Origin: Deltaproteobacteria bacterium
GTDB taxonomy: Bacteria; Desulfobacterota; Desulfarculia; Adiutricales; Adiutricaceae
Length of the DNA: 54,627 nt
Direction of reading: 5' to 3'
NCBI GenBank assembly: GCA_031263485.1
Contig: JAISFS010000323.1
Location: forward strand, 1-54,627
Positions 2,384 through 43,922 of the stretch are shown piece after piece. The notes below the pieces were generated by a model. That model had not been told where the DNA came from. It was given only the letters and a program-made list of their open reading frames with translations, and ran no database searches. A program made the position numbers and the translations under genes. Every line of letters begins with the position of its first letter. Within the stretch, counting starts at the first letter, position 1.

Positions 2384-2513
2384 AAACCTCAATCTCCTTG
2401 ATACCGAAAAGGGCGCGGGCACTGTCTGAAACGTGACCCCGCGCCAGTCGAGAGGCGGGCCGCTTTTCCGTCCCCGCAACCATATGCGGGGGTAACCTGA
2501 ACCGGATTATGTC

Positions 2514-2976: not shown

Positions 2977-3006
2977 GGGCTCCGGGATTCAGCCATCCCG
3001 GAGCCC
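2977..3006 (-). terminator. Hairpin after receptor copy 2
   Basis: A perfect 11-bp stem (GGGCTCCGGGA/TCCCGGAGCCC) with an 8-nt loop, 18 nt past the stop of the receptor gene in its direction of transcription. There is no U-tract after it, so it may be a 3'-end stabiliser rather than a true intrinsic terminator. Confidence 0.5.
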
Positions 3007-3024
3007 GGAGCCGTGGACGCTCGC

Positions 3025-5115: not shown

Positions 5116-5303
5116 AAACCTCAATCTCCTTGTAACCGGAAAGACGCGAGTGAATTCCTGAAACGGTACTCCGCATCGGGTCGGCGCGGACGCACGTCTA
5201 CCCCCGTCCGCGAAACCGCAGGCGGGGGATATTGCCCTGTCAGGATGATGAATTTGTCCGTACGGGGACCCGCCCGCAGACGCGGAGACGCGTCCGCATC
5301 GCC

Positions 5304-5357
5304 TCAGGGTCAGGGTCAGGGTCAGGGTCAGGGTCAGGGTCAGGGTCAGGGTCAGGG
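5304..5357. repeat. (TCAGGG)9 hexanucleotide repeat
   Basis: Nine perfect TCAGGG units, 54 bp, about 190-240 nt upstream of the receptor start (read as CCCTGA on the transcribed strand). A perfect short repeat of this length is prone to slippage and could alter promoter or leader spacing. Confidence 0.95.
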
Positions 5358-5370
5358 CGCGATCGCGCAC

Positions 5371-26892: not shown

Positions 26893-27471
26893 TTGACAGC
26901 CTACCTCGACAGCCTTTTCGGGGACCTCGCCGCGTCGGTGGAGGCGGCCCGGAGCCAGAAGGACCGGCTCGCGCGGGCGGCGGGGTTGATGGCGTCCTCC
27001 CTGACAGGCGGCGGCCAGATCCTCATCTGCGGCAACGGCGGGAGCGCGGCCGAGGCCCAGCACTTCGCGGCGGAGTTCGTGGGCCGCTTCCTCATGGAGC
27101 GTCCCGGCCTTCCTGCGGTGTCGCTCGCGGCCGACAGCTCCAAGCTCACCGCTATCGGGAACGACTACGGCTTTCAGGAGGTCTTCGCCCGGCAGGTCCG
27201 CGCCCTGGGCCGCCCGGGGGACGTCCTGTGGGCCTTGTCCACCTCCGGGACCTCGCCCAACGTGCTCGCGGCGCTCGCCGCCGCCCGCGAGCGGGGCCTC
27301 AGGACGGTCTACATGTGCGGCCGGAGCCTGGCTGACGAGGGCGTGGCGGACGTCGTGATCCTCTCGCCCGGGCCGTCGACCCCCAGGATCCAGGAACTCC
27401 ACCTGTTCTACGGCCACGCCCTCTGCGACATGTGCGACCGCATCCTGTTCGCCGCGCCGGTGGACCCTTGA
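26893..27471 (+). CDS. gmhA: Phosphoheptose isomerase (SIS domain)
   Basis: 192 residues. Converts sedoheptulose 7-phosphate to D-glycero-heptose 7-phosphate, the first step to the LPS inner-core heptose. SIS-domain motifs ICGNGGSAAEAQHFAAEFVG, AIGNDYGFQEVF, ALSTSGTSPNV and the C-terminal ELHLFYGHALCDMC are intact. TTG start, with AAAGGAG 6 nt upstream. Translation appears coupled to the next gene through a TTGA overlap. Confidence 0.93.
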   Translation: MTAYLDSLFGDLAASVEAARSQKDRLARAAGLMASSLTGGGQILICGNGGSAAEAQHFAAEFVGRFLMERPGLPAVSLAADSSKLTAIGNDYGFQEVFARQVRALGRPGDVLWALSTSGTSPNVLAALAAARERGLRTVYMCGRSLADEGVADVVILSPGPSTPRIQELHLFYGHALCDMCDRILFAAPVDP

Positions 27472-28442
27472 CCCGAAATCCCCCTCCGGCGCTGGATTTC
27501 CGGAAAGTGACCCTCACCGGGCTCTCCGAGAGGCGCTCCACGGTGGACGCGGGGTCCTTCGGGAAGGCGTTCCCGGCGGGCGCCCCGTTCAAGGCCTTCA
27601 TGGACTCGCTCCCGGAGATCCTGGGCTCGCGCGACCTGCGCCGGGCCGCCCGGGCCGTGGCCAGGGCCAGGGCGGCCGGCCGCCCGGTCATGCTCGCCAT
27701 GGGCGGGCACCCGATCAAGGTGGGCCTGGGGCCGCTCATCCGGTCGCTGGCAGAGGACGGCTTCGTGACCAGCCTTTCCGCCAACGGCTCGGTCCTGATC
27801 CACGATTTCGAGACGGCCTCGGTCGGGGCCACTTCCGAGGACGTCGCGGCCTCGCTTTCGGAAGGCCGCTTCGGCGTGACGGCCGAGACCGGGGCCTTCG
27901 TCTGCCGCGCCGCCCGCGAAGCCGCGGCCTCGGGCGAGGGCCTGGGCCGCGCCGCGTGCCGCATCCTGGACGAGACGTCCCCGCCATATGCCGCCCTGAG
28001 CGTGCTCGTGGGCCTGAGACGTTCCGGGACGCCGTTCACGGTGCATCCGGCCCTGGGCACGGACGTGTTCTCCATCCACCCCGACTACGACGCGGGCGAG
28101 CTGGGGCGCGCGGCGGACGCGGACTTCCGGCTCTTCTGCAGGCTCGTAGCCGATCTTGAGGGCGGGGTCTTCATCAACCTGGGCTCGGCGGTGATCATGC
28201 CCGAGGTCTTCCTCAAGGCCGTCTCCCTGGCCCGCAACCTGGGCTTCAGGCAGGAGGGCCTTTTCACGGTGGACATGGACTTCGCGCGGAACTACCGGCC
28301 CCGGGTAAACGTGGTGGAGCGCCCGGTCCAGGGGCGAGGACGCGGCGTGAGCCTGACCGGCCACCACGAGATCATGTTCCCGCTCCTCATGGCCATGGCC
28401 AGGGAGTACGCCCGCGCGGGGGACTTCGATGAGCCGGCCTGA
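27468..28442 (+). CDS. Conserved protein with deoxyhypusine-synthase-like features
   Basis: 324 residues from the TTG that overlaps the gmhA stop. The segment VMLAMGGHPIKVGLGPLI then FVTSLSANGSVLIHDFE resembles the NAD-binding core of deoxyhypusine synthase (LxGxxVPxGLxPII...TGANLVHD). The end has SLTGHHEIMFPLLMAMARE. Bacteria lack eIF5A, so the substrate is unknown; coupling to gmhA suggests sugar or envelope metabolism, which is inference. It overlaps the next gene by 14 nt. Confidence 0.7.
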   Translation: MTRNPPPALDFRKVTLTGLSERRSTVDAGSFGKAFPAGAPFKAFMDSLPEILGSRDLRRAARAVARARAAGRPVMLAMGGHPIKVGLGPLIRSLAEDGFVTSLSANGSVLIHDFETASVGATSEDVAASLSEGRFGVTAETGAFVCRAAREAAASGEGLGRAACRILDETSPPYAALSVLVGLRRSGTPFTVHPALGTDVFSIHPDYDAGELGRAADADFRLFCRLVADLEGGVFINLGSAVIMPEVFLKAVSLARNLGFRQEGLFTVDMDFARNYRPRVNVVERPVQGRGRGVSLTGHHEIMFPLLMAMAREYARAGDFDEPA

Positions 28443-29259
28443 CCCGCAAGTCCCGCCTGCGGCGGCGGACCTCCGATGCCCCGCGGACGGCCGCTCCCCC
28501 GCGCCGGGCCCGGACGAAGCGGACGGATCCGTCCCCGCGAATGCCCATGCCCATGCGAAGCCTCCTGCTGCCGCTGGCGCCTTGCCCCGCACGAAGCCTC
28601 CTGCTGCCGCTGGCGCCTTGCCCCGCACGATTTCCCTGGCCGACGCGAAGGGCCTGCCCAGCGCGGGCGCCCTGGCCCCAGTTAAGTCCCTGATCCGCGT
28701 AGCCCCCGTCCTCGCGGCCCTGGCTCTCCTGGCCTGGGCCGGCCTTTACGCCTCCCCCGCATCGGCGGCCGATCCGGTCGACGGGACTCCGCCTCCCGCG
28801 GATGGCCAGGAGTCGGCCAGAGCTCGGCCCGGACGCGCGGCCCCGGTCTCCTCCTGGAGCCTCGCGCACCTCTACGACGTCATGAGCCGTGAGGATCCCC
28901 TAAACGAGAGGGACATCGATCTGTATATCAGCCATCTCGACAGGATCGAGGCCTTGAAGGAGGACCCTTCGGGGCTCTCGGAAATCCTCGTCGCCACCGG
29001 CTGGTCCGAGAGCCGGCTGGCATACGTGACCACGAAGACGGGGATAGCGCTTCTGGGGCATCTGGACCCGGACGGCCTCAAGACCAGGAAGATCCCGCCC
29101 TTCGCGAGGCCCAGCCGGGACGAGACGGCCCTGGTCCTTTCCCGCGAGCCCGCGATCGCGAAGGCCTACGCCCAGGTTATCCGGAACCGCCGGGCGAAGG
29201 CCGCCCCGGACAGCCCCCCGCCCCCCGCCAGGAAAGGCGCCAGGCGGAAAGGCGCCTGA
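28429..29259 (+). CDS. Divergent founding-type member of the small secreted protein family
   Basis: 276 residues. The core is VMSREDPLNERDIDLYISHL, then ESRLAYVTTKTGIALLG, matching the R..Y...K...G pattern of the ten genes that follow. A hydrophobic signal or anchor segment (VAPVLAALALLAWAGLYA) lies at about 89-108. It is preceded by a long Pro/Ala-rich extension with a duplicated 12-residue unit (KPPAAAGALPRT). The usual TP-A-P motif is missing and a basic tail is added. ATG overlaps the preceding gene, placing it in the gmhA operon. A later start is possible. Function unknown. Confidence 0.65.
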   Translation: MSRPDPQVPPAAADLRCPADGRSPAPGPDEADGSVPANAHAHAKPPAAAGALPRTKPPAAAGALPRTISLADAKGLPSAGALAPVKSLIRVAPVLAALALLAWAGLYASPASAADPVDGTPPPADGQESARARPGRAAPVSSWSLAHLYDVMSREDPLNERDIDLYISHLDRIEALKEDPSGLSEILVATGWSESRLAYVTTKTGIALLGHLDPDGLKTRKIPPFARPSRDETALVLSREPAIAKAYAQVIRNRRAKAAPDSPPPPARKGARRKGA

Positions 29260-29487
29260 GCGCGGGCGATCCGCGCGGACTCCCCGCCCGCCCGGGATAC
29301 CTCCCGCGTGATTCCCGGTGCGCGGCGCCGGTCCCGCGACTCATGCCGCGCCCCGATTTCAGCCCGCGAGGCATGCCGCGCCCGGTGTTCAGCCCGCGAG
29401 GCATGCCGCGCCCGGAGCCCGGAGCGCGATACCCGACGAACCATGCCGGACGATAGCCGCACGTTAACGAAAGGGAAGGTTACCCCC

Positions 29488-29913
29488 TTGAAACCCTCAC
29501 GCCGCACAGCTTTCCTGATGGCCGCCCCCCTCGCGGCCATGGCCTCCCTCCTGCTCGCCGCCTCCTTTGCCCAGGCCCAGGCTCCAGACGACCTCGAGGC
29601 GTTCTTCGCCTCCCAGCCCCCGCTCAAGGCCTCCGAGATCCCGATAGCCCTGGACGCGTTGCGCCTGGTCTCCCAGAACGCCTCGGACGAGTCGATAGAC
29701 CGCCTGGCGGCCAGACACGGGGTATCCAAGGAGAGGCTGGACTTCATCGTCACCAAGGTCATGGCCTCCGTGATCCTGATAGCGAGGCCCGGGGACGCCG
29801 AAGCCGCGGCGCAGGCCTCAGGGGCCCGCGCGGCGCTCCCCACCCCCGCCGAACTCGAGCTGGTCCGCCCACACTACGCGGCCCTGGCCGAGTTCTTCCC
29901 CGGACTGAAGTAG
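29488..29913 (+). CDS. Small secreted protein family, member 2
   Basis: 141 residues from a TTG with AAGGGAAGG upstream. Signal peptide ends at ASFAQA. Mature part: FFASQPPLKASEI, a helix, then RLDFIVTKVMASVILIA and LPTPAELELVRPHY. No cysteines. An ATG at 29443 would place extra residues before the signal peptide and is less likely. Expected to be exported; no known domain recognised. Confidence 0.7.
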   Translation: MKPSRRTAFLMAAPLAAMASLLLAASFAQAQAPDDLEAFFASQPPLKASEIPIALDALRLVSQNASDESIDRLAARHGVSKERLDFIVTKVMASVILIARPGDAEAAAQASGARAALPTPAELELVRPHYAALAEFFPGLK

Positions 29914-30234
29914 CCCGGGCCGACGTAAGGCCGGGCCGCGGGAAGGCCAGACCGCCGGGACCTCAGTTCCCTTCACCCTTCTTCCCTCCCCATGTCCCGG
30001 TACCCGTACTCCCGCCCGTACTCCCAGTACCCGCCGCGCCCCCAGGGTCACGTCCCTGCGCCGACGCCGGGCGCCGCGGAGGACTCCCGCCGGGAGGGGG
30101 CCAAAGACCCAGGACGGGCGCGGGACGAGCGTTCGCGAAGTCGTCTGCCCTCTCCGGGGCCCGGTCCGGCGCACCCTCGCCCGCCTCGCGGGAGGCGCTG
30201 TCCAAGGCCGTGTAATGAACGTCCGGAAAGCCCT

Positions 30235-30262
30235 TTGATCCGGACCCGGTTCCTGCTAGACT
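30235..30262 (+). promoter_or_regulatory. Possible promoter of member 3, with leader hairpin
   Basis: TTGATC, 16-bp spacer, TAGACT. A C-run/G-run hairpin (CCCCCCTAGGGACAGGGGGG) follows at about 30288-30308, before the ATG at 30342. Confidence 0.4.
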
Positions 30263-30341
30263 TGGACATTCCCCCGCAAACCCCCCTTCCCCCCTAGGGA
30301 CAGGGGGGATTTCAACGCCCGGACCCGGAGACCGCGCCGCC

Positions 30342-30815
30342 ATGGAACCTCGCGCATCAGGACGCCCGTTCCCCGCCTTCGCGCCCGCGTCCGCCGGAGC
30401 CGTAGCGCGCCCCCTCGCCGTTCTGGCGCTCGTCGCGGCCCTCGCGGCCGCCGCCGCGCCCCTGGCCGCCCAGGAGGGCCCCCCTCCCCTTCCGCCCGAG
30501 GTCTTCGCCGGCCAGAAGCCGGTGACCGAGGCCGATCTGGACCTCGCCGTGGATCTCATCGCCCGGGGCAGGGAGGGGAACGCCACCGCCGCGGACATGG
30601 AGACCCTGGCCAAACGCCATAAGGTGGAGGAGCCCTTCCGCGCCGCCTACGTGGCAGCCCGTTTCGGGGCGGGCATCCTGATGCTGAGGCAGGGGGCCAC
30701 CCCCGAGCAGATCCAGGAGTTCTACGGGACCCCGCTCGCCGTTCCCTCGGACGAAGAGCTGGAGTCGATACGGGCCATGTTGCCCCGGATTGAGGCCCGG
30801 CTCGGCCTGAAATAG
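30342..30815 (+). CDS. Small secreted protein family, member 3
   Basis: 157 residues. Signal peptide (LAVLALVAALAAAAAPLAAQ), then VFAGQKPVTEADLDLAVDLI, FRAAYVAARFGAGILMLRQG, and YGTPLAVPSDEELESIRAML. The mature domain is about 110 residues, predicted all-helical, without Cys. Exported protein of unknown role. Confidence 0.78.
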   Translation: MEPRASGRPFPAFAPASAGAVARPLAVLALVAALAAAAAPLAAQEGPPPLPPEVFAGQKPVTEADLDLAVDLIARGREGNATAADMETLAKRHKVEEPFRAAYVAARFGAGILMLRQGATPEQIQEFYGTPLAVPSDEELESIRAMLPRIEARLGLK

Positions 30816-30937
30816 CCGGAACCCCCCCCTTCCATTCGCCCGCGCGTGGCGGACCGCCGCGCCGTCGGCGCGGCTTCAGGCGCGCCGCACGGCCTAACCA
30901 CCGACCCGACGTCCGGGCGGCAGAAAGAGCCCTCATC

Positions 30938-31372
30938 ATGAGATACCCCGCGACCGCCGCCGGGGCCGCCGTCCCTGCGGCAGCCCTGGCCCTGATCATG
31001 GCCTTCGCCTCGGCCCCCGTGACCGCCCTGGCCCAGCAGCAACAGATGCTGCCCGACGAGATCTTCCGGAACCAGCACCCCATCACCGCCGCGGACGTGG
31101 ACGCGGCGGTCGACATCATCAAGATCTCCTCCCGGAACCCCAGCGAGGAGGACATGCGGGCAATCGCCACCAAATACGGATACGACGACCTCCGCCTGGC
31201 CTACATCTCCACGAAATTCATGGCCGGGATGCTCCTGCTCATACCCGCCGGCCTGACGGCCGACCAGGTGGCGGAACAGTTCGGGACCCCTCTCGCCTTG
31301 CCCGACGACGCGGAACTCGAGGTCGTGCGCGCCGCGTTGCCCCGTCTGATGGAAAGCACCGGGCTTAAGTAG
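30938..31372 (+). CDS. Small secreted protein family, member 4
   Basis: 144 residues, the most typical member. Signal peptide to about ALAQQ, EIFRNQHPITAADVDAAVDI, then LRLAYISTKFMAGMLLLIPA, FGTPLALPDDAELEVVRAAL and a C-terminal TGLK. AGAAAGAG lies about 8 nt upstream of the ATG. A good query for defining the family. Confidence 0.8.
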   Translation: MRYPATAAGAAVPAAALALIMAFASAPVTALAQQQQMLPDEIFRNQHPITAADVDAAVDIIKISSRNPSEEDMRAIATKYGYDDLRLAYISTKFMAGMLLLIPAGLTADQVAEQFGTPLALPDDAELEVVRAALPRLMESTGLK

Positions 31373-31584
31373 CCTTCCCGCCGCTCCGCCGAAGCCTTCC
31401 GCCTCCTGCGGCCTCCGCAGGAGTGCGCCGAGGGACGTGACCGGACGGATATCGCCTCCGGCCTCATCCGGCAAGGCCATGAACGCCCTCGGTCGACCTG
31501 GCCCTGACCTTGGCCTCCGCCTTTCCCTGGACGTCGCCTGAGCCATGGCGCCCGCGTCTTCACTCGCCCTTGAACCCCGCCCCT

Positions 31585-31660
31585 GCCCCTGCCACGACAG
31601 ATCTTCCGGGACGGGAGCCCCGTCGTCTCACAGACCCGGCGGTCGACATCCTCTAGGCCG
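31585..31660 (+). pseudogene. Relic of a further family member
   Basis: QIFRDGSPVVSQ in one frame is followed, after a frameshift, by DPAVDIL and a stop. The DNA aligns with the EIFRNQHP...DAAVDII segment of the preceding gene. Only this short piece is recognisable, so an old duplicate has decayed between members 4 and 5. Confidence 0.5.
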
Positions 31661-31841
31661 CATCATCTGGGCCGCATCCAAGAACCTCTTCGGCGCTTCA
31701 TGACGCGCGCCCCGCCCCTCGCCGGGAAGGGCTCCCGCCCGTCCTGCCGGGCGCGGAACGCCGTCCGTCGGAAAAGGCGCCGGTCTTCGGCAGGCGGACG
31801 ATGCCAGGCCGAGCGCCCTCAATCCTCAAGGATCTCCTCCG

Positions 31842-32336
31842 ATGCCAATGCCAGAACCGAAACTTCCCGCCCTCCCAGCCATTTCCGCATTTCCCGCCGC
31901 CCGACTCGCCATGGCGGCGCTCGCTTTAGCGTTCGCTTTCGCCCTCACGCTCGCCGCCGGACCGCTGGCGGCCCAGACGGGATCCGGGATGCAGGTCACC
32001 ACGGAGATCTTCGATGATCAGCCCCCCCTCTCTGAAGCCGACTTCCCTGCGGTCGTGGAGCTCCTGACCCTTCTCAGCGCCCCCGACGTCGACCCCGCTT
32101 CCAGGCAGGACGCCTTTCAGGAGGTGGCCGACAAGCACAAGACGACCGTGCGCCGCCTGACCTACGCCTACCTTAAATGCACGATAGGCCTGACGTCCCT
32201 CCTGCTGGGAGGCTTGAGCGACGCGGACGTCGAGCAGATTGCCGGGAGCCCGCTCGCGGCCCCGACCGAAGCCGAGCTTGAAGTGGTGAGGGCCCACCGG
32301 GACGAGATCTCCGCCGCGCTGAACCCGGAGGACTGA
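31842..32336 (+). CDS. Small secreted protein family, member 5
   Basis: 164 residues. Signal peptide LAMAALALAFAFALTLAAG..AQ, then IFDDQPPLSEADFPAVVELL, RRLTYAYLKCTIGLTSLLLG (with a Cys absent from most members) and SPLAAPTEAELEVVRAHRDE. AAGGA lies 9 nt upstream of the ATG. Confidence 0.78.
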   Translation: MPMPEPKLPALPAISAFPAARLAMAALALAFAFALTLAAGPLAAQTGSGMQVTTEIFDDQPPLSEADFPAVVELLTLLSAPDVDPASRQDAFQEVADKHKTTVRRLTYAYLKCTIGLTSLLLGGLSDADVEQIAGSPLAAPTEAELEVVRAHRDEISAALNPED

Positions 32337-32704
32337 AACCGGCGCGACCGTCGTCCGCAGACCCCCGTCCTTCGCGCAAGCCCTCCTCTCCTCCCCGACC
32401 GGCGGGCGTCCCCGGATTGAGGGCTCCCGTGCGGGACGTCGCCCCGAAACCCCACTCCCCCGGCCTCTCGTTTGCACGCTGCCTGCCGGACGGAGCTTGC
32501 CTTCCGACCGATGCCCGTTATAATTGTCCCGGTCGCCGCCTCGCCGAGCGCCGGGTCGCGCCAAAACGTCAAACGCAGGCCGACATTCCTAAATCGAAGG
32601 CCTGTCCCCGGCCCTTCCTCGCTCCCCCACCGCTCCACGCGCCTTCGGCGCGTACCGGCCCACGCCGGATCTGTGCAAGCGCACCCGGTTCCGCATGCCC
32701 CGTC

Positions 32705-32852
32705 CTGAGCCTGTCCGGCGCCCGCCCGGAGCCGGTCCGGCATCTATCCGGAGCCTGTCCGGCGCCCGCCCGGAGCCTGTCCGCCATCTCTATCCGGAGC
32801 CTGTCCGCCATCCGTCCGACTCTTGTCCGGAGCCTGTCCGGCGTCCGTCAGG
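32705..32852. repeat. Degenerate repeats of CCGGAGCCTGTCCG
   Basis: Several copies of a CCGGAGCCTGTCCGxC word spaced irregularly between members 5 and 6. All three frames are open through it but no start or domain supports coding. Confidence 0.6.
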
Positions 32853-32968
32853 TTCACCCCCGGCTCCTCACGCCGGCCCGCAAGAGTTTCGTCTGCCTCC
32901 GATCGTGCCGGAGGCGCCGAATCGGGCCCGACTCCCCCCGCATCGACGGGAAGCGCCGGGCCCTGCCT

Positions 32969-33065
32969 GCGGTCGCCCCTGCGACCGCAAAGCGCGCCCC
33001 TCCTTCGGGAGAGGGCCGACACGCGCCCCCCTTGGGGCGCCAAACACCGCCTTCGGGCGGAGGAG
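32969..33065 (+). promoter_or_regulatory. Four consecutive hairpins before member 6
   Basis: Stems at 32969-32988 (GCGGTCGC/GCGACCGC), about 32996-33016 (TTCG loop), 33023-33040 (GCGCCCC/GGGGCGC) and 33047-33060 (CCGCC-TTCG-GGCGG). The last touches the GGAGGAG ribosome-binding site. A structured leader that could limit translation or protect the mRNA. Confidence 0.55.
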
Positions 33066-33078
33066 TCAACCGACACAC

Positions 33079-33483
33079 ATGCTAATCACGAACCTAACCA
33101 AGTCTTTGGCATTCCTGGGCCTCGCCGCCCTCGTCCTCGCCGCCGCGCCGGCATTCGCCCAGAATCCCTTCGCGGATCAGGCCCCCCTGACCGCCGCCGA
33201 CATCCCGGCCATAATCGAGATCCTCGAGACCGCCCGCGCCAACCCCACCGACCAGGCCGCCGTCATGGCGGTGTACACCAAGCACAACCTGGACGCCATG
33301 CGCGGCGCCTACCTTACCCTCAGGACCGGGGCCGGCGTCTCGATGCTCATGGCCAACATGACCCGCGAGCAGGCCGCCCAGCAGATGGGCGGCGTGGACA
33401 ACGTGCCCTCCGATGCCGAGATAGCCGTGATCAAGGACAACCTGCCCGCCCTCCAGGCCGCCATGGGCATGCCGGCGCAGTAG
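33079..33483 (+). CDS. Small secreted protein family, member 6
   Basis: 134 residues from ATG 33079, with GGAGGAG upstream. Clear signal peptide (MLITNLTKSLAFLGLAALVL..AFAQ). Mature part: PFADQAPLTAADIPAIIEIL, MRGAYLTLRTGAGVSMLM, VPSDAEIAVIKDNL. The TP-A-P motif is altered to VDNVPSDAE. Followed by an intrinsic terminator, so the array has at least two transcription units. Confidence 0.82.
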   Translation: MLITNLTKSLAFLGLAALVLAAAPAFAQNPFADQAPLTAADIPAIIEILETARANPTDQAAVMAVYTKHNLDAMRGAYLTLRTGAGVSMLMANMTREQAAQQMGGVDNVPSDAEIAVIKDNLPALQAAMGMPAQ

Positions 33484-33548
33484 CGGCAGCCCGGGCTGGC
33501 CCCGGAGCCTCGCGGCATGCCTCCGGCGCCTTGGCCCGCTTTTTCCCG

Positions 33549-33586
33549 AGCGGGGGCCGCTTTTCGGCGGTCCTCGCTTTTTTTTT
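33549..33586 (+). terminator. Intrinsic terminator after member 6
   Basis: Stem GCGGGGGCCGC / GGCGGTCCTCGC (11 pairs with two G-U) followed by nine T, about 65 nt past the stop codon. Confidence 0.85.
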
Positions 33587-34006
33587 AGGCTTCTCTGGCA
33601 TGTAACGGCTTTTTGAGTGTCATGGCCTTGGGCATCCGTCATATAGTGAAGCCACAAAAAAGGGTTCGTGCGCCGGAGCGGCGATAATCGACATGGAAAT
33701 CGCGGACGGCCCCCGCCCCCTCCCCCCGGACAGCTGTGGAAATCGTGACCGGATCGCGTCGGCCCCGCTCCGAGCCCCGGTCTCGGGTTTTCCTGCCTCG
33801 CGGCACCGGCGGGCTTGCGCCTGCGGCTACGCTCGCATCATGCGCCTTCCCCCTTGCGGCCTCAACGTCCGAGCCATCGGCGGAGACCTCCGGAAACCGC
33901 CCGTCCCTGACAGGATGAGGCATGTGCCGCGCACGATGCCGTGCCCGCCGCACCCTTCCCGCCTCGTGGCCGCATCGACGATGCCGGTGACGCCGTGTCG
34001 ACCGAG

Positions 34007-34738
34007 ATGATCATGACTCAAGCAAGACAGCCCGTTCCGGCGCTAGGAGCCTGTTGCATAATTCACAATTGCATTGCCACGGCGCTATTGGTTGTGGGAG
34101 GACTGCTTCTTGCCTGCCACATCCATCCTCGTACCCTTCCTCAAAACCCTTTATGCAACAGGCTCCTAGGTCGCCGCCTCGCCGCGCTGGCGTCCGCAGC
34201 GGCGATCGCGCTTTGCGCGCCGCCTGCGGTCGCCTGGACCGACGGGCCGACCCGCGATGTCTTCCGTAACCAGCCGCCCTTATCCGACGAGGACGTGACG
34301 GACATCCTGACGCTCATGGCCGCTTGGGAAGGGAACGGGGAAGGGAACGGAGAAGGGGAAGGGAACGGAGAAGGGGAAGGGAACGGAGAAGGGGAAGGGA
34401 ACGGAGAAGGAGAAGGGAACGGAGAAGGGAACGGTAACGCGGTCGCCGCGATACTCGCCAGGCGCGGTTGGGACGAAAGGAGGGTGCAGTACCTGGTCAT
34501 GAGATGCATGGCCGCGTACGTGATCATCGACCCCGAAACGCCCTTTTCCGGAGGCGATCTGCTCAGGCGCTTCGGAACCCCGCTCGCAGTGCCTTCCCAA
34601 GACGAAATGGCCGTCCTCAGACGCCGCTACGGGGATCTCGCGCGAAACGGCAGGCTTCTTGCCCTGATTGCCTCAGACGTTTTGGAACGGGCGCCCGAGA
34701 GTCCCCCTGAAGGCAGTGCCGGATCCGTCCCCCCTTGA
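34007..34738 (+). CDS. Small secreted protein family, member 7, with in-frame MITE and EGNG repeat
   Basis: 243 residues as the frame now stands. The MITE (34047-34165) plus its 4-bp target duplication adds 41 codons after MIMTQARQPVPALG. The pre-insertion N-terminus would have read on into RRLAALASAAAIALCAPPAVA, a normal signal peptide. The family core follows: VFRNQPPLSDEDVTDILTLM, then a 36-residue Glu-Gly-Asn repeat, RRVQYLVMRCMAAYVII, RFGTPLAVPSQDEMAVLRRR, and a C-terminal extension. The MITE-encoded part is hydrophobic (IATALLVVGGLLLAC) and could act as a second signal or anchor. The gene may still be functional; no frameshift is seen. Confidence 0.65.
   Translation: MIMTQARQPVPALGACCIIHNCIATALLVVGGLLLACHIHPRTLPQNPLCNRLLGRRLAALASAAAIALCAPPAVAWTDGPTRDVFRNQPPLSDEDVTDILTLMAAWEGNGEGNGEGEGNGEGEGNGEGEGNGEGEGNGEGNGNAVAAILARRGWDERRVQYLVMRCMAAYVIIDPETPFSGGDLLRRFGTPLAVPSQDEMAVLRRRYGDLARNGRLLALIASDVLERAPESPPEGSAGSVPP
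34047..34165. mobile_element. 119-bp MITE (family 1, copy B) inside member 7
   Basis: GAGCCTGTTGCATAA...TTATGCAACAGGCTC, flanked by CTAG at 34043-34046 and 34166-34169. Nearly identical to copy A in opposite orientation, so it moved recently. In this orientation one frame is open right through. Confidence 0.88.
34326..34434. repeat. In-frame GGAGAAGGGGAAGGGAAC minisatellite
   Basis: About six 12-18-bp purine-rich units encode (EGNGEG)n inside member 7. Units are multiples of three, so copy-number change would lengthen or shorten the protein without frameshift. Confidence 0.85.
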
Positions 34739-34825
34739 CCGGAAGGCGCGCTCCGGACATAATCGACCATGCCCGGGCCGATGCGGCGGGCCGTGTCCGT
34801 GCCGTGCGCCGGAAAGGGGTACAAC

Positions 34826-35287
34826 TTGAGACCTTCCTCGCAGCCTTTTCGCCAACTGGCCTTTCCGGCGCTCGCGTCGCTGGCGGCACTCGCGGCGCTT
34901 GCCCTTGCCGCGCCGTTGGCCCGTGCCCAGCCCCCGGACACCGGCCTTGCCCCGGACAGCACCCTGGAAACCGTATTGCAGGGCCAGCCTCCCCTGACCG
35001 AAGAGGAGCTGCCCGCCGCGGTCGAGATCCTTATCGACCTGGACGCCGACGGCTCCGGATACGACAGGATAGGCGCGAAATACGGGCTGGACCGGAACCG
35101 CCTGATCTATTTCGCCAACAAGCTGACAGCGGGCATGTGGATGCTCGACCCGGACTTCAACGCCCCAGCCGAGGACGTGGCCATGGCCTTGGGGACCCCG
35201 CTGGCGTTGCCCTCCCCCGAGGAACTCGCGCTGATAGGCTCCCATTACGACGAAATCAGGGCGGCCAGGGAAGCGGCGCGGCGGTAG
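34826..35287 (+). CDS. Small secreted protein family, member 8
   Basis: 153 residues from a TTG with GGAAAGGGG upstream. An ATG at 34769 would add 19 residues before the signal peptide. Signal peptide ASLAALAALALAAPLARAQ, then VLQGQPPLTEEELPAAVEIL, NRLIYFANKLTAGMWML, LGTPLALPSPEELALIGSHY. No Cys in the mature part. Confidence 0.75.
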   Translation: MRPSSQPFRQLAFPALASLAALAALALAAPLARAQPPDTGLAPDSTLETVLQGQPPLTEEELPAAVEILIDLDADGSGYDRIGAKYGLDRNRLIYFANKLTAGMWMLDPDFNAPAEDVAMALGTPLALPSPEELALIGSHYDEIRAAREAARR

Positions 35288-35576
35288 CCGCGCCTAGCGG
35301 ACGCCCGCTTATGCCTGCGGGGCGTTCCGACGGTACCCGGAACGCCTCGCAGGCCCTTCGGCCATCGCCGCATCGACCGGCGATTCCCCGGCTGCCGCCC
35401 CTGACCCGCTCATACACCGTCCCGGAGATCTTTCCGCGCCCTATACCCTATGGATCACCGATCGGGAACGGACAAAGGAGCCGCAGAGACGGCGCCTGCG
35501 ACCGAACCCGAGCGTAACCGGAGCCTCAGCCGACCCGGATCCGAAACGATACCGGTGCCGATGCAGACGCGTCAAT

Positions 35577-35665
35577 GTCGATTATCGACGCCCCTGCCCA
35601 TGAAACCTTTCGGGGCATGTCAATATGACAGGCGCCCGCAGCCGCGATGCCAAGAATATCATTCC
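35577..35665 (-). repeat. Dispersed repeat segment (MPRKVS relic)
   Basis: Minus-strand reading gives HIDMPRKVSWAGASIIDID, matching the segment at 9826-9900. It lies in the 630-bp gap between members 8 and 9, which shows no other gene. Confidence 0.45.
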
Positions 35666-35916
35666 ATGACAACGCCGGACCGTTGACGGCCGGACCGGAC
35701 AAGGCTGAGGAAAGAAACCTTCACTGGCCTCCGGCCCCTCCCCCCGGCCCGGCCCCCCCGCCTTCGGGCCGTCGCCCGCCGTGGCGCCGTCGGCCGCCGT
35801 CCCGCCCGTCCGCCGGGTTCGCGCGGGCGCGCGCCGTCGCGCGGTCCTCTCATCAACCTCCCTGGCCACATCGCCAGATACATGCCGTCACCCGCAACAC
35901 CGGATAAGTGAACATC

Positions 35917-36342
35917 ATGCGAAAACCCTTCACGGGCCCCCGGCCCCTTACCACAGTCCTGGCCGCCGCAGCCCTCGCCCTGGCCGCCTTCGCGCCGTCC
36001 TCCCCGCTCCTGGCCCAGGGGCTCCCCCCGGAAGTCTTCCAGAATCAACCGCCGATGACCGCGGCGGAGGCCGAGGTCGGCATGGAGATCCTTCAAGCCT
36101 CCATGGCCGACGCCGACGAGGCCGCCATAGAGGGTATCGCCTCGAAGGCGAAGATGGACAAGATGCGCTCCTTGTACGTCACAACAAAGCTGATGGCCGG
36201 GTTCCTCCTCACCCTTCCGGGCACCACCGAGAAGGACATCGCCGAACAACTAGGGACCCCGGAGGCCCTCCCGACGGCGACCGAGCGCGAGCTGGTGAAA
36301 CCGTACCTGGGCACCTTGAATAAGATGATGGGCATAGAGTAG
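35917..36342 (+). CDS. Small secreted protein family, member 9
   Basis: 141 residues from ATG 35917 (an in-frame GTG lies 9 nt earlier, after GGATAA). Signal peptide LAAAALALAAFAPSSPLLAQ, then VFQNQPPMTAAEAEVGMEIL, MRSLYVTTKLMAGFLLTLPG and LGTPEALPTATERELVKPYL. Very close to members 10 and 11, including about 50 bp of upstream DNA. Confidence 0.82.
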   Translation: MRKPFTGPRPLTTVLAAAALALAAFAPSSPLLAQGLPPEVFQNQPPMTAAEAEVGMEILQASMADADEAAIEGIASKAKMDKMRSLYVTTKLMAGFLLTLPGTTEKDIAEQLGTPEALPTATERELVKPYLGTLNKMMGIE

Positions 36343-36664
36343 CGACCCCCGTCCGCCCGCCCGCGGCCGGATGCCGGTCCCTCGCAGGGACCGTGTCCCG
36401 CCGCCGGCGCGGTCGGCCCCGTCGGAGCCCGTCGACAGCACGGCCATAAGGCGGACCTCCGCAGGAGAATCCCGCCGCAGGCCGGCCAGCGACCTCTCCG
36501 CAACGGAAGCGTCCCGCCACAGGCTTGGCCCCCGACCTCACCGCAACTGAAGCATCCCGCCGCCCGCCTACGCTACCCGCTTTCGCTCCCCCTTCTCCGC
36601 CAGTCTTCCTGGTTACGGCGCCGGATACAGGCCCGTCACCCGCTACAGCGGACAAGTGAACGCC

Positions 36665-37090
36665 ATGCGAAAACCCTTCCCGGGCTCCCGTCCCCTTCCC
36701 CCCGTCCTGGCCGCCGCGGCCCTCGCTCTTGCCGCCTTCACGCCGTTTGCCCACCTCCTGGCCCAGGAACTCCCCCCGGAAACCTTCGAGAACCAGCCGC
36801 CGTTGACGGCGGAGGAGGCCGAAGCCGGCATGGAGATCCTGAAGGCCTCAATGGCAGACGTGGACGAGTCGGTCGTAGAGTGGATCGCCGCCAAGGCAGG
36901 CATGGACGATGCGCGTACCATGTACGTCACCACCAAGATGATGGCCGGATTCCTCCTCACCGTTCCGGGAGCCACCGAGGAGGACATCGCCGCCAGCCTC
37001 GGTACTCCCGATGCCCTCCCGACGGCGGCAGAGCGCGTGCTGGTGGAACCGCACCTGGACGCCATAAGGCTGATGATGGGGAAGAAATAG
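36665..37090 (+). CDS. Small secreted protein family, member 10
   Basis: 141 residues from ATG 36665. Signal peptide LAAAALALAAFTPFAHLLAQ, then TFENQPPLTAEEAEAGMEIL, ARTMYVTTKMMAGFLLTVPG, LGTPDALPTAAERVLVEPHL. A recent duplicate of member 9. The upstream gap holds three degenerate repeats around CCGCAxxxGAA-xCxTCCCGCC. Confidence 0.82.
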   Translation: MRKPFPGSRPLPPVLAAAALALAAFTPFAHLLAQELPPETFENQPPLTAEEAEAGMEILKASMADVDESVVEWIAAKAGMDDARTMYVTTKMMAGFLLTVPGATEEDIAASLGTPDALPTAAERVLVEPHLDAIRLMMGKK

Positions 37091-37366
37091 CGGCACCCGT
37101 CCCCCTGCCCGCAACGGATGCCGACCCCTCGCCCGGGCCGCATCCCTCCTCCGATGCGGGCGCGCCCCGGACAAGATCCGCCGATCATGCGCCAGAAAGC
37201 TAGCCGCCCGGGGATAATCCCGGCACGGCCTCGGACTTAGCCCGCCCGCCATAGCGGCTTCCCCCAGTCCCTCGCCTTCAAGCAGTCCCTCGCCTCCGGT
37301 CAACACTCTCCGCCAACATCCCTGATTACGATGCCGGAACAGGCCGTCACCCGCAACGCCGGACGA

Positions 37367-37800
37367 GTGAACGTCACGCGAAAACCCTTCACGGGCCTCA
37401 GACCCCTTCCCCCGTTCTGGCCGTTGCCGCCCTCGCCCAGGCCGCCTTCACGCTCTCTTCCCCCCCTCTGGCCCAGGATATCCCCCCGGAAACCTTCGAG
37501 AACCAGCCGCCGATGACAGCTGCGGAGGCCGAAGCGGGCATCGAGATCATCAAGGCCTCCAAGTCCGGGGCGGACCAGCCCGTCTTGGAGGAGATAGCCG
37601 AAAAGGCCGGCATGGGCAAGGAACGCGCCATGTACCTCACCAGCAAGCTGATGAACGGTTTTCTGCTCACTTTCCCGGACGTGACCGAAGAAATGGTCGC
37701 GTCCGCCTTCGGGACCCCCAACGCCATCCCCACTGCTGCCGAACGCGAACCGGTGTAACCGCGCGAGGCCGCCATGAGGACCTTGATGGACATGGGTTAG
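37367..37800 (+). pseudogene. Small secreted protein family, member 11 (broken)
   Basis: Same order as members 9 and 10, but with three defects. The ATG is ACG (only the GTG at 37367 remains). One C is lost from a C6 run in the signal peptide (near 37410-37415), shifting frame. GAA has become TAA at 37756, with 13 further codons in frame after it. The mature frame is otherwise clean (MTAAEAEAGIEIIKAS, RAMYLTSKLMNGFLLTFPD, FGTPNAIPTAAERE), so inactivation is recent. Confidence 0.8.
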
Positions 37801-37837
37801 CAGTGCCCGCCCGCCTGCCCGCGCTGAAAACGCCTCA

Positions 37838-37992
37838 GGCTTGCGGGAATCGCGCACCACGCGACCGACAGGCTCGCGGCAATCACTCATCATGCGACCG
37901 ACAGGCTCCTGGCAATCACGCATCTCGCGACCGACAGGCTTGCGGAAATCACGCACCTTGCGGCCGACAGGCTTGCGGCAATCACGCGTCAC
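37838..37992. repeat. About 4.7 x 33-bp tandem repeat
   Basis: Units at 37861, 37894, 37927 and 37960, preceded by a partial unit. Core GCGACCGACAGGCTTGCGGC then AATCACGCA. Contiguous units with no spacers. It lies just after the last family member. Confidence 0.85.
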
Positions 37993-38848
37993 GCGGCCGA
38001 CTGACTGGCCCCCTTCAAGGCTTTCCGACCGCAACGTCTTGATCGGTCGTTGCTGGATAACCCCTTGTCGCCCTCGGCAGAGACGCCGAAGGATGCCTGA
38101 GAGCGGCGCTCCGTCGCGCCTCGTGAGCGCTTTCAAGGGCAGATCTTCCAAGGAGCCGCCACGAATGCCGACTCGGGAGTAGGCGGACGGCGCAGGTATC
38201 GACCAAGCCGCAACCGTCTTGACGGGCAGACACCGGGGAAATTCACCGCCGCCTAAACCGGCAATTTCAGTGGCCCACGCTATCGCTTGAGTTGATTGTT
38301 TCTGTACACGCGCGGGAAAACGCGGGGACTGCTGAAGATGAAGGATACGGGAGGCGTTCGGTACCGGCGGCTTCGGAAGCGTCTTCCGTCTGCAACTTCA
38401 TCGAAGAAGTCGCCGCTCATCGGAACGGCGATGCCGCCCGAATCCGGAAACCCCGGTCATGAAGCCATATCCTTAGGGCATGACATTCGGGCAAAGACTC
38501 TCATTCCGCCACGATTAAGCCGTCAAGCCGAAGCCGAGGACGGCATTTTCCCTGATCCGCGCCGAGCCGCCATCATCATCATCATCATCATCGCCGCGGC
38601 CGCAGACGGATCGCCGCACCGGACCGGCCCTTGAGTCCGGCATCCCGGCCACGATCCGCCGTCCTGAAACTCTCTCGCCTCAGGCCTCCGCGAAGGGATC
38701 CCCCCGCTACCGGGACACGATCGCCTCTCCGGCCGCAACGCCCTTATGCGTCCGCGCAACGCCAAACGGCAGTCCGGCGTTTCGCGGGTCTCCAACGGCG
38801 CCGTCAGAGAACAGTTCACCCGGAGACGTCGGCCTCCATGCCTGAAGC
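37993..38848. other. About 850 bp intergenic
   Basis: Contains a (CAT)7 microsatellite at 38571-38591 and nothing else that can be supported as a gene or RNA. Confidence 0.5.
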
Positions 38849-39337
38849 TCAGCCTTCCTTGGCGATTGGGACCCTGCGGTAGCGGAAGACGCACTTCCCG
38901 TGCCCCTCCATGATGGTCTCGGGCCTGTCCAGCGCCAGATCCGGCGCGTAGCCCTCGATGAAGGCCGCGTCCCGCATGCACGACGCGACAAGTCCAAGCT
39001 CCTCCATGCCCAGTTCCCTGTACATCGTAGCGTAGTCGCAACGGACAACCTCGTAGGCGTATGAGTCGTCCGTGAGCTCCAGGACCCGGGCATCCAGCGC
39101 CCCCCCCGCCGCCCAGATGCCCTGGCGGGCGGCCAGCGTCCGGGGGCCCGGCATTTCCGACTCCTGAGCCGCCAGGGCGGCGCCCGCGTCCCTGGCGGCA
39201 TTCCTTATCGCGCGCGCGATGAGTACCTTGGCCCTGTCAGCGCCCAGCTCCTCCTTGAGCGCGCCGTAGACGTACCCTATGAGCTCCGCCTCGATGCGCC
39301 TGCGGGCGATCAGGGGGACCTCTGCCTCGCCGGTCAT
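38849..39337 (-). CDS. L-2-amino-thiazoline-4-carboxylic acid hydrolase family protein
   Basis: 162 residues. Family features: an N-terminal helical part, then VVRCDYATMYRELGMEELGL, SCMRDAAFIEGYAPDL, ETIMEGHGKCVFRYRR. Enzymes of this family open a thiazoline ring to give cysteine, but most members in anaerobes are uncharacterised. ATG at 39337 follows GAAAGG. The upstream terminator at 39393-39437 separates it from the rubrerythrin operon. Confidence 0.78.
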   Translation of the reverse strand: MTGEAEVPLIARRRIEAELIGYVYGALKEELGADRAKVLIARAIRNAARDAGAALAAQESEMPGPRTLAARQGIWAAGGALDARVLELTDDSYAYEVVRCDYATMYRELGMEELGLVASCMRDAAFIEGYAPDLALDRPETIMEGHGKCVFRYRRVPIAKEG

Positions 39338-39392
39338 GACTCGTGCCTTTCGCGGCCAATCCGCCGCCTGCGCCCCGGGGTTCAGGGCGCGG

Positions 39393-39437
39393 AAAAAGGC
39401 CGCCGCCGGCAAGGACGTGCCCTTGCCGGCGGCGGCC
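39393..39437 (-). terminator. Intrinsic terminator of the rubrerythrin-desulfoferrodoxin operon
   Basis: A 17-bp perfect stem (GGCCGCCGCCGGCAAGG with its complement), a 6-nt loop, then TTTTT on the minus strand, about 50 nt past the desulfoferrodoxin stop. Confidence 0.9.
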
Positions 39438-39488
39438 TCCGAAGGATGGCGCTCCCGCCCGGCGCAAGGGCCGGCCGGGAACCCCGGG

Positions 39489-39863
39489 CTAGGCCTTCCA
39501 GAGGCCGTGGAGGTTGCAGTATTCGCGTGCGACGGCCGGGCCGTCCGCGGTCTTGAAGACCGCCTCCGGCGCCTCGCCGGGCTTCAGGCGCTTAAGGTAG
39601 GTGATACCGTCCACGGTGAGCTCGATCCACTGGATGAAGTGCTTCTCCTCCATGGGGTGGGCAACGGAGCCCACCTGGACCTTGTAGCCGCCGTCGACCT
39701 TGGTGATCACGGGGACGTGCTTTTCCTTGGCGCCGTCGGAAGTGTTCTCCTTGAGGAGGATCATCTTCTCGCCGCAGCAGTCCGGGGCGCAGTCGTCGGC
39801 GGTGAGCACCTTGAGGGTCAGGCTGCACTTGGGACACTTGAAAATCTGGTCTATCTCGGACAT
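39489..39863 (-). CDS. dfx: Desulfoferrodoxin (superoxide reductase, two-iron class)
   Basis: 124 residues. Center I Fe(Cys)4 ligands are C10, C13, C29, C30. Center II ligands are H49, H69, H75, C116 and H119, and the catalytic Glu47-Lys48 pair (EKHVP) is kept. It reduces superoxide to peroxide in the cytoplasm without making oxygen, which suits an anaerobe. ATG at 39863 has CCGAGG upstream. It lies 175 nt after rubrerythrin, which can remove the peroxide formed. Confidence 0.95.
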   Translation of the reverse strand: MSEIDQIFKCPKCSLTLKVLTADDCAPDCCGEKMILLKENTSDGAKEKHVPVITKVDGGYKVQVGSVAHPMEEKHFIQWIELTVDGITYLKRLKPGEAPEAVFKTADGPAVAREYCNLHGLWKA

Positions 39864-40038
39864 CGTATTACCTCGGTAACTGTTTGACGACCTGCGAGTC
39901 AATGCCGGTTTCGGCAGATCGGGGGGGCTGCATCATCGGCGCCTTCGCGTAACGCGGAGCGCAATGCCCGAGTCGCGCCGCGTCCGCGTCGGCGCGCCTG
40001 CGGCGCGTGTCGGCCGGACGGAGGACATCCCGGACCCG

Positions 40039-40614
40039 CTACAGGCTCCCCAGGACCTCGAAGTAGGCCTTGGCGTGGGCGCACGCGGGGCAGAGCTCGG
40101 GCGGCTCGAGGCCGTGGTGGATGTAGCCGCAGTTGCGGCAGCGCCACACGGTCTCCTTGGGCTTCTTGAAGAAGGTGCCCTCCTTTATCTCCTTGAGGTT
40201 TTCCAGGAACCTCTTCTCGTGGAACTCCTCGGCCCGGGCAATCGACTCCATCGCGGCCGCTATGGCCGGGAATCCCTCGCTCTTCGCGGTCTTCGCGAAC
40301 TCCGGGTACATGACGGTCCACTCGTAGTTCTCGCCGGCCGCGGCGGAAGCGAGCCAGTCCGGGAGACCGCCCGTGATCCCGGCGGGGAAATCGCCCGCGA
40401 TCTTGGCAGTGCCGCCCTCCAGGAACTTGAAGAGCCTCTTGGCGTGCTCGCACTCCTGCTCCGCTGTCTCCAGGAAGATGGCCTGGACCTTTACGTAGCC
40501 CTCGTTCTTGGCGACCGATGCCGCCATGGTGTAGCGGTTGCGGGCCTGGGACTCGCCCGCGAAGGCTGTCAGTACGTTGATTTCCGTCTGTGATCCCTTG
40601 AGCGACTTGGTCAT
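40039..40614 (-). CDS. rbr: Rubrerythrin
   Basis: 191 residues. Ferritin-like four-helix diiron domain (AFAGESQARNRYT, AEQECEHAKRLF, ARAEEFHEKRF) and a C-terminal rubredoxin domain with CRNCGYIHHG and PELCPACAH as iron ligands. NADH-dependent peroxide reduction in anaerobes. ATG start with an AGGAGGT-type site just upstream (GCGCCAGGAGGTCGCCC on the coding strand). First gene of the operon. Confidence 0.95.
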   Translation of the reverse strand: MTKSLKGSQTEINVLTAFAGESQARNRYTMAASVAKNEGYVKVQAIFLETAEQECEHAKRLFKFLEGGTAKIAGDFPAGITGGLPDWLASAAAGENYEWTVMYPEFAKTAKSEGFPAIAAAMESIARAEEFHEKRFLENLKEIKEGTFFKKPKETVWRCRNCGYIHHGLEPPELCPACAHAKAYFEVLGSL

Positions 40615-40935: not shown

Positions 40936-42026
40936 TTTACTCCGGAAAACACGTGCCAGGACGCAGGATGGGTCTGAACCAGCAAAATCCGAAATGGCCC
41001 GCCCAAATCATCGCGATTCAGCGTGCTTGCGGGAGGCGCCCATGGAAACGGCAGTTTGCAGGTGACCAGCCGCCTTTCCCCGCAAGCCGTCTCAATGGAA
41101 AGGTTGTTAGCTTACGAATCCAGGTCCGACCGGCTAAACTCCTGTCCCTACCTGGCCGCCTTTGCCAGTCCGGGTCCGCCCGCCGGAACCCTACGGGTCA
41201 ACCCGGAGGAACCGTCCCGGTCAGCCCGACAGAACCGTCCCGGTCAGCCCGGAGGAACCGCATTGTCCATGGCCATGTCCATTGCCATGGTGCAACCGCA
41301 GGTATCATGTCGTGTTCCAGATGATTGCAGACGCCTGTGGCGGTGGAACATCTTGTGAGTACCGTTTCCGCGGCAGTTCCGTATCGGATACGATGATTTC
41401 ATGTCTTTCTATCGAATTCCCTTCCTGCCCGCCTGGCCGGTTTCGCGGCTACGGCAGGATGCCCGATCGGCAACGAAGTCAAGTTAAACGCGAAAGGGTG
41501 GCGGTCGAACCGTGATCGGAACGAAGCGGACTGACGGACATCGCCATGTCACGCGTTCCGACTCTCTCTGGCCTTATTGTCAGGCTATCACCGGGCCAAA
41601 GATCGCAAACCTGGCTGGCACCCTTATGGGAGGTCCTGGAGTTTACTGAAGCCTATGTTGAAGCCGATGTCCTGCAGTCAGGGGTATGGCCATCGACATG
41701 GCGGTTACGCAACAATACGAGAAAGGTTCATGATGACGAGCCGAATTGGCGGCGGATACCGTAACGGGGGAGCCGGCCGGTCGCTCACCGATAACGGATA
41801 CATTATTCACGTGATGACCGAGACGTGATGACCGAGAATTGATCTAAACCGCCGGGAAAACCAGGGCCGCGATGCAACGGTGGAGCCCGGATGGCGCATC
41901 AGACAGACGACGGAAAGCGGGCGCCAACATCCCGGAGGGTTCGGGTGACATGCGGGCCGTCACGGCGGGTCGGGCCGTTCCGGCAGCGAAGGAAGATGGA
42001 GACACGCCTGAACCCGAGAGCAGACT
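40936..42026. other. About 1.1 kb without a confident gene
   Basis: Holds three degenerate 23-bp repeats at about 41203-41270 (AGCCCGxxxGAACCGTCCCGGTC). Short open frames near 41546-41830 have no recognisable domain. Confidence 0.45.
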
Positions 42027-43910
42027 TCAGTCGCCGAAGCTTTTATAACTCATTTCCTCGAATCTGATCTCCACGTTCATCCTGCCGACGATGGATACTG
42101 CCACGGCCCAGACCTTCTTGTCCTGTCCCAAGAACTCCAAGGGATACTTTTTCCTGCATATCTGGCTAATGGCATCGGCAATTCCTCTATCGAGAAGCTT
42201 ACGGACAGGAACCGCGTGATTCCGTTCGGAGGGTGTCGGCGACCCGGCGTCAATTTGACCGTGACCGGTCGCCTTACCGGACTCACTTCCCTCTGAACCG
42301 CTCGATGCGGGCAATGTTGACATTCCGGTTCCGGAAGCGAGCGAAGAATCTTTCGGCTGGCTGTCCTGTCCGTTCTTGGCGAGGCTCTGAGGGAGATCGT
42401 GATATTTTACCTCGATGACAAAGACATTTTTTCGCGACATGACTACAAAATCAGGAACCCCGCCGCCATTGCCGTATTCGGCCGAAAATTTACCGCGCAC
42501 GAATGATAATGCCCTGATCATATGGGATTTAAAAAACGATTCCTTGTCATCGTCATGATGTTGGTGCGGCAACCCTGCGAATATGGAAGACAGATAATTT
42601 GAAGCGCTTTCAGGCTCAATGCTTGTGATGGCATCGGAGAATTTTCTGTATAGCGTCAAAAAATCTGTCTGAGCATCCATGGAAATATCCGGGTATATCC
42701 TTTCTACAAGATAATCTTCCGCGAAGGACATCCTGACTTCCGCGTTGGGGATCACGAGTTTGTATGTCTTCCCCATGGTGGGGGCCGTTGCGGGAATGAT
42801 TTTGTCGATGGTCAGATACCCCGTCATCAATAGGGCAGTGGTAGCGGACAGCGTGTTCGTCATATGCGATTCTAACGTATTTTCGCCTGAAATATTCCTG
42901 GCGAACAGCCTGAAATAATCCTTATCAAGTATCTGCAACCGCTCAAGAAAACCTGGACCTCCGGTATCATACCAATATCTGTCGAAAATTTTGTTTCGTA
43001 AAAAGTGTAGGATCGAGTGAGGGTTCAGCACGCGTGACTGTCCGTCAAAACTGTATCCGTCGTAAAAATCGACAATGGTACCTAATATATCTTTAAGCCC
43101 GGAATCTGGTCGGAATTGACCAATTTTCTTTAGGTTTTTGAGTGAGGATCTGACTTTGCCTGAAAAATTGGTCTTAATCTCTTTCCGAGTAAATCCACAA
43201 ATTTTTGAATACTTTGGGTCGAACGTGATATCACGGAAATTATTCAACCCAAAGAATGGCGTCAATCCGGTCGATCTCGTAATCCCGGTAATGAAAGCCG
43301 AACGTACCATCCCGCAGTCATGCGCGGCTTTCAGGCTGGAATAGAATCCGTATAGCGTATCACGAACGATCTCAAGTTTTTTCGGGTCATTAAAATTTGC
43401 GGTAAACTGAAAATCATATTCATCGACAAGCAGAGCGACTTCCGGAATATCGGCTTTTTTTGAAAGATCTGATGCTCCAAGGGGAATTGTGTCATATGAC
43501 TTGTATAAGACTTCTATCAAACGGTTCAAGGCTGACCCGCAGGATGGGCAACAATCGAGATCTATTCCGTATTCGTTGCCGATTTCTCGCAGTTTATTCA
43601 AAAGATCCTTACCCAAACTGTAAGGGTCTGTCCCGAAACGGTTCATCTGAATCTCGATCACATGGGAACTTTTCCATTGATATTCAGGTTTCTTCGCACA
43701 TATGTCTAATTTCTCGAACAGGTCGCGCCTCCCCAGCAAAACCTGTTTGATAGTGCTGAGAAGAAGCGATTTGCCGAACCTTCTCGGCCTATTCAGGAGG
43801 ATCAGCTTGGGCTCTTTCGGCTTCATCAATTTATGGATGAAACCGGTCTTGTCGACATAGGCATGCCCCCCCATAATCAATTTCTCGAAATCAGCAACTT
43901 CGACTCTCAT
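42027..43910 (-). CDS. AAA-ATPase-like protein with C-terminal PD-(D/E)XK nuclease domain
   Basis: 627 residues from ATG 43910 (a GTG at 43922 is also possible). N-terminal AAA-ATPase-like domain: YVDKTGFIHKL, Walker A NRPRRFGKSLLLST at about 40, Walker B VALLVDEYD, and the GITRSTGLTPFFGLNNFRDI segment. The C-terminal PDDEXK_9 nuclease has GVPDFVVMSRKNVFVIEVKY. This core is split by a Ser/Gly/Lys-rich insert of about 55 residues before RGIADAISQI. Such proteins are common and multicopy in anaerobic gut bacteria; function unproven. Base composition is clearly more AT-rich than the neighbours, suggesting transfer. Confidence 0.85.
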   Translation of the reverse strand: MRVEVADFEKLIMGGHAYVDKTGFIHKLMKPKEPKLILLNRPRRFGKSLLLSTIKQVLLGRRDLFEKLDICAKKPEYQWKSSHVIEIQMNRFGTDPYSLGKDLLNKLREIGNEYGIDLDCCPSCGSALNRLIEVLYKSYDTIPLGASDLSKKADIPEVALLVDEYDFQFTANFNDPKKLEIVRDTLYGFYSSLKAAHDCGMVRSAFITGITRSTGLTPFFGLNNFRDITFDPKYSKICGFTRKEIKTNFSGKVRSSLKNLKKIGQFRPDSGLKDILGTIVDFYDGYSFDGQSRVLNPHSILHFLRNKIFDRYWYDTGGPGFLERLQILDKDYFRLFARNISGENTLESHMTNTLSATTALLMTGYLTIDKIIPATAPTMGKTYKLVIPNAEVRMSFAEDYLVERIYPDISMDAQTDFLTLYRKFSDAITSIEPESASNYLSSIFAGLPHQHHDDDKESFFKSHMIRALSFVRGKFSAEYGNGGGVPDFVVMSRKNVFVIEVKYHDLPQSLAKNGQDSQPKDSSLASGTGMSTLPASSGSEGSESGKATGHGQIDAGSPTPSERNHAVPVRKLLDRGIADAISQICRKKYPLEFLGQDKKVWAVAVSIVGRMNVEIRFEEMSYKSFGD

Positions 43911-43922
43911 GATTATCAACAC

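Follow-up and report, generated by a model that had tools for sequence, protein, structure and literature searches.

Organization of the array

The window, by which we mean the whole 54,627-nt stretch of DNA analyzed here, carries ten intact plus-strand open reading frames (ORFs) between positions 28429 and 37090, together with a pseudogene and a short relic. All copies in this array represent one homologous, putatively exported domain of about 100 to 120 residues. Two plus-strand genes precede them. The first gene of this leader operon (26893 to 27468) encodes a GmhA-like sedoheptulose-7-phosphate isomerase with a SIS domain (Pfam SIS_2, E = 3e-31), matching TIGR00441 and NF010546 at E-values of 1e-55 and 6e-61, under the curated cut-offs. 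The second (27432 to 28439) encodes a GSU2086-family protein, gmhA-linked and belonging to sugar/LPS operons (NF052581, E = 2e-105, above the cut-off), and lies immediately 5' of family member 1.

Member 1 (28429 to 29259, domain at 28876 to 29163; profile E = 6e-30) is the ancestral ortholog of the array by its clade in the tree and its synteny; translation may in fact begin at a TTG (28582 or 28618). Members 2 (29308 to 29913; E = 8e-34) and 3 (30342 to 30815; E = 3e-37) were likewise placed in the tree and have orthologs in sister species; member 2 probably starts at the ATG at 29443. Members 4 (30938 to 31372; E = 2e-42), 5 (31842 to 32336; E = 6e-35), and 6 (33079 to 33483; E = 2e-41) follow, the last with ribosomal-protein-like codon usage and a likely start at 33079 within the ORF 32695 to 33483. 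In member 7 (33941 to 34738), an 18-nt tandem repeat detected by TRF at 34326 to 34434 adds a GEGN-rich loop that divides the domain, and for this reason the profile scores it only as two pieces (34250 to 34330, E = 0.92; 34430 to 34642, E = 4e-12). Member 8 (34769 to 35287; E = 1e-34) precedes a 77-nt relic of a signal-peptide-coding 5' end (35715 to 35791), 75% identical to the unit at 35.9 kb (E = 9e-6). The array closes with a tandem triplet built of ~0.7-kb repeated units: member 9 (35908 to 36342; E = 6e-42), member 10 (36656 to 37090; E = 2e-42), and a pseudogene (37381 to 37791) whose frame is broken in the signal peptide, leaving that part in a different frame, and which has a single internal, in-frame TAA near the C terminus.

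A BLAST search of the window's own genome with member 9 as the single query recovered most other members (E-values from 2e-57 to 3e-7). The mature-domain profile matched the undivided copies at E-values from 2e-42 to 6e-30. As this profile was built from the same array sequences, the single-member BLAST search is the independent test of homology. The ten genes, the fresh pseudogene, and the relic proposed in a first-pass annotation of this DNA are all borne out. Moreover, the similarity persists without the signal peptides; therefore, the loss of similarity that the annotation had named as evidence against a family is not seen. The same genome has two additional copies, on contig C104. At locus L011, an autotransporter-like protein of 1,011 amino acids is encoded on the minus strand (2471 to 5503), ~4 kb from the two dispersed copies.

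Sequence features and predicted fold

By inspection, each member starts with a hydrophobic stretch closed by an AxA-like site, most often with a Q right after it; on these features, the family is predicted to be exported via signal peptides, as first proposed. None of the ten has the Cys at the predicted +1 position that the lipobox of a bacterial lipoprotein would provide, again by inspection. The description of the mature domain as almost Cys-free holds, with 0 to 1 Cys per domain. The GTPxAxP motif, which had been considered usual, is indeed common across the array but is missing from member 1 and its orthologs. Conservation falls mostly on the helix caps and on an R-x-x-Y on helix 3, the near-invariant residues being the P and E of the last helix cap and the R/Y of helix 3; a catalytic-type polar set was not found.

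Searches of Pfam, NCBIfam, PHROGs, and PADLOC gave nothing convincing for the mature domain, and a PDB sequence search returned chance-level matches only, in agreement with the earlier view of an unrecognized domain. PADLOC, which covers anti-phage systems only, gave 0/18 matches. Several apparent hits were discarded: TrAA12 on member 7 (E = 7e-11) covers only the GEGN low-complexity repeat, Sp-DndD (E = 7e-4) matches 1 of 47 members, and DUF3717, INCENP, and similar Pfam entries are isolated weak matches.

The domain had been called helical, and AlphaFold2 models agree: member 9 is modeled as five helices (pLDDT 95, pTM 0.87) and member 1 as a longer helical version (pLDDT 93.7, pTM 0.85). 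A Foldseek comparison of both models with the PDB yielded no match at an E-value of 0.001 (best E-values, 1.1 and 2.9), and among the matches listed, the query TM score was below 0.5. The member 9 model likewise had no match at 0.001 among viral proteins. We rejected the PDB and BFVD fold matches, many of them to helix-turn-helix DNA-binding proteins, on E-values above 0.1, low TM scores, and the predicted export of the family. A viral origin was also set aside, as one IMG/VR scan with member 9 found no relatives. Spy/CpxP, HdeA, and Skp are small, exported, helical, non-enzymatic periplasmic chaperones. The array family may be likened to them in being small, helical, putatively exported, and, in our reading, non-enzymatic, yet these families are absent from the Pfam matches of 47 members at an E-value of 0.1 and no fold match links them. 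A literature search on the Desulfovibrio homolog described below and on such arrays turned up nothing useful. The family is real, unnamed, and unmodeled in the libraries searched, and the syntenic lead that follows is new.

Distribution of the family

In the GTDB family of the window, copies occur in 37 of 37 genomes, at 1 to 26 per genome, with 1 to 12 in genera other than that of the window; a separate count for the window's genus gave 8 to 27. Other genomes of the same class gave 0 of 26. A sample of 395 genomes of the phylum added one group, comprising 11 genomes of one genus (profile E-values from 2e-7 to 6e-5), and a directed search of this second family, probably Desulfovibrionaceae, found one distant copy each in 30 of 199 genomes (5 of 44 genera). 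In the loci read, this homolog lies 3' of glpX. Profile comparison by hhalign (probability 96.6, E = 5e-10, 100 columns) supports the assignment of the glpX-linked proteins to the same family. The two groups match in the signal peptide, the [QE]PP-x-T helix cap, a W/G-x-x-x-RF helix, and the final E-L helix (loci L114, L116, L137, and L142); the glpX-linked protein differs in occurring once per genome, in having an additional ~17-residue loop behind helix 1, and in its neighbors glpX and nadE. Hence, the earlier notion of lineage specificity holds for the expansion but not for the family itself. The source of the window is probably a gut bacterium from termites; Adiutricaceae metagenome-assembled genomes (MAGs) have been reported from termite guts (PMC9137090).

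A conserved genomic slot

Outside one genus, and leaving aside two contigs too short to judge, gmhA-like and GSU2086-family genes lie directly 5' of the founding gene and on its strand in 18 genomes; the exceptions are three genomes with one leader gene detected and one (G008) with neither. In two genomes (G020 and G011), the start of the founding gene overlaps the stop of the gene upstream. Six genomes of one genus have degP/htrA immediately 3' of it, an identification based on the Trypsin_2 and PDZ domains seen in one of the six. In a further genus (seven genomes), the cluster sits before rarA and, in six of the seven, behind branched-chain amino-acid transport genes.

Mutants in hldE, GSU2086, and gmhA of Geobacter sulfurreducens share a common defect (−3.1, −3.2, and −3.7, respectively), which ties the leader genes to heptose/LPS synthesis (PMC5585712). 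The two genes 5' of the array match the gmhA and GSU2086 families of that system, whose products, however, are cytoplasmic enzymes, with the exported family not among them.

At its far end, the slot is bounded by an ATC-hydrolase gene in the opposing orientation, usually accompanied by desulfoferrodoxin and rubrerythrin; in the window, the ATC-hydrolase-like gene lies at 38852 to 39412 on the minus strand (PF14196, E = 5e-30) and is recognized as the border by synteny. The midpoint distance between the founding gene and this border is 0.5 to 1.7 kb in several single-copy loci versus 6 to 10 kb in three array genomes; therefore, the array expanded in place. The ATC-hydrolase-like, desulfoferrodoxin-like, and rubrerythrin genes of the window (38852 to 40614, minus strand) form a conserved cluster of oxygen-stress type facing the array.

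Duplication history and selection

Most founding genes cluster together in the tree, the triplet of members 9, 10, and the pseudogene is specific to the window (support 0.988), and most array copies of the window have a sister-species copy as their nearest neighbor. The repeated units measure 710 to 748 bp, flanks included. The array grew by ~0.7-kb tandem duplications in a fixed slot, and the rapid duplication suspected at the outset is visible as recent copying in the triplet, the repeated units, and the dN/dS ratios. These ratios are 0.20 to 0.26 for orthologs and 0.32 to 0.43 within the triplet; for the freshest pairs of other genomes, they reach 0.97 to 1.85, rough values because dS is just 0.02 to 0.11. 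Older copies are under purifying selection, and the history is one of ordinary duplication and divergence with loss. Tandem repeats of 11 to 44 nt occupy spacers at 37836 to 38001, 32702 to 32841, 28556 to 28630, and 36457 to 36563, and possibly promote unequal exchange. In genome G016 (locus L068, 6310 to 8699), two distinct family genes were apparently duplicated as a pair (6310/7729 and 7084/8427; dS 0.02 to 0.05).

Member 6 stands out for its codon adaptation of 0.80, against a ribosomal-protein range of 0.63 to 0.81, and in the related genomes where orthologs were found, these take the top rank or one close to it; codon adaptation here largely follows third-position GC. A strong hairpin resembling an intrinsic terminator lies 3' of the gene (33548 to 33579, plus strand; 14-bp stem and T run), a consensus match of a kind that overall is not commoner than in shuffles.

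Possible roles of the family

Our preferred reading, held tentatively and at somewhat less than even confidence, is that these are periplasmic, non-enzymatic envelope proteins, with one core copy and a set of diversifying paralogs. From one founding gene, which in some relatives overlaps the stop of a heptose/LPS-linked gene, a tandem array arose in one gut-bacterial genus. The family's products would remain in the periplasm or envelope, the location beyond the inner membrane being predicted, and would act by binding; we infer binding rather than catalysis because a conserved catalytic-type residue set is absent. Acting like a chaperone or scaffold, the founding copy would contribute to outer-membrane/LPS homeostasis, the paralogs would have spread to differing clients or conditions, and member 6 and its orthologs would be the abundant form. 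The signal peptides without a lipobox, the presence of the founding gene across genera, the heptose/LPS leader genes, degP/htrA downstream, the ortholog dN/dS of 0.20 to 0.26, the helix-cap conservation, and the codon usage of member 6 all argue for such a role. Against it, the heptose/LPS link is positional only, and the neighbors are rarA in one genus and glpX in the second family. A bolder version, which we consider improbable as a whole, is a new periplasmic fold that aids outer-membrane/LPS assembly, is tied to heptose synthesis, and was multiplied in one gut lineage into client- or condition-specific versions.

Host interaction had been suggested from the start, and the proteins could instead be released or displayed at the surface, act on the gut environment, the host, or flagellates, and have diversified through duplication in an arms race. 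Copy number varies widely (8 to 27) among species of one genus, dN/dS is near 1 in the freshest pairs, and the MAG names of relatives fit a termite-gut series (PMC9137090). Yet the founding copy occurs universally and sits with housekeeping envelope genes, purifying selection acts on the older copies, and a second bacterial family also has a relative. We consider this alternative unlikely: the position behind heptose/LPS genes favors a founding copy with a core function in the envelope, and host interaction, although possible, is less favored and not supported by our results.

We give a similarly low probability to neutral birth and death, by which one gene is functional and the extras are short-lived products of unequal exchange in repeat-rich, high-GC spacers. 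The pseudogene, the relic, the 0.7-kb tandem units, the many spacer repeats, and new copies with dN/dS near 1 would all be expected, but most window copies are nearest a sister-species copy in the tree, and the ortholog pairs compared have a dN/dS of about 0.2. Less probable still are periplasmic carriers for differing small hydrophobic ligands; a soluble, helical domain of small size, in which the residues between conserved helix caps vary, would suit them, as would the branched-chain amino-acid transport genes adjoining the cluster in one genus, yet neither a fold match to ligand carriers nor conserved pocket residues were found. Least likely are periplasmic immunity proteins against competitors' toxins, kept as a variant array: the small, divergent, exported paralogs resemble one, but no toxin was recognized next to the array or, where neighbors were read, next to solitary copies, PADLOC (anti-phage systems only) was negative, and one core copy is universal.

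The function of the family can be approached experimentally: the bacteria that carry the homolog are probably culturable and of Desulfovibrio type, so function is testable by ordinary gene deletion. The family combines a confident predicted fold unlike those in the PDB with presence throughout one bacterial family and, in a second, a homolog present as a single copy. In the array, genes at stages of birth, divergence, and death can be read clearly as a natural series within one fixed slot.

Elsewhere in the window, the GC content drops to 47% at 42001 to 44000, compared with at least 60% nearby, where a minus-strand ORF of 631 amino acids has no NCBIfam match. Two adjacent genes resembling TonB-dependent haem/siderophore receptors lie at 266 to 2479 and 3028 to 5370, both on the minus strand.
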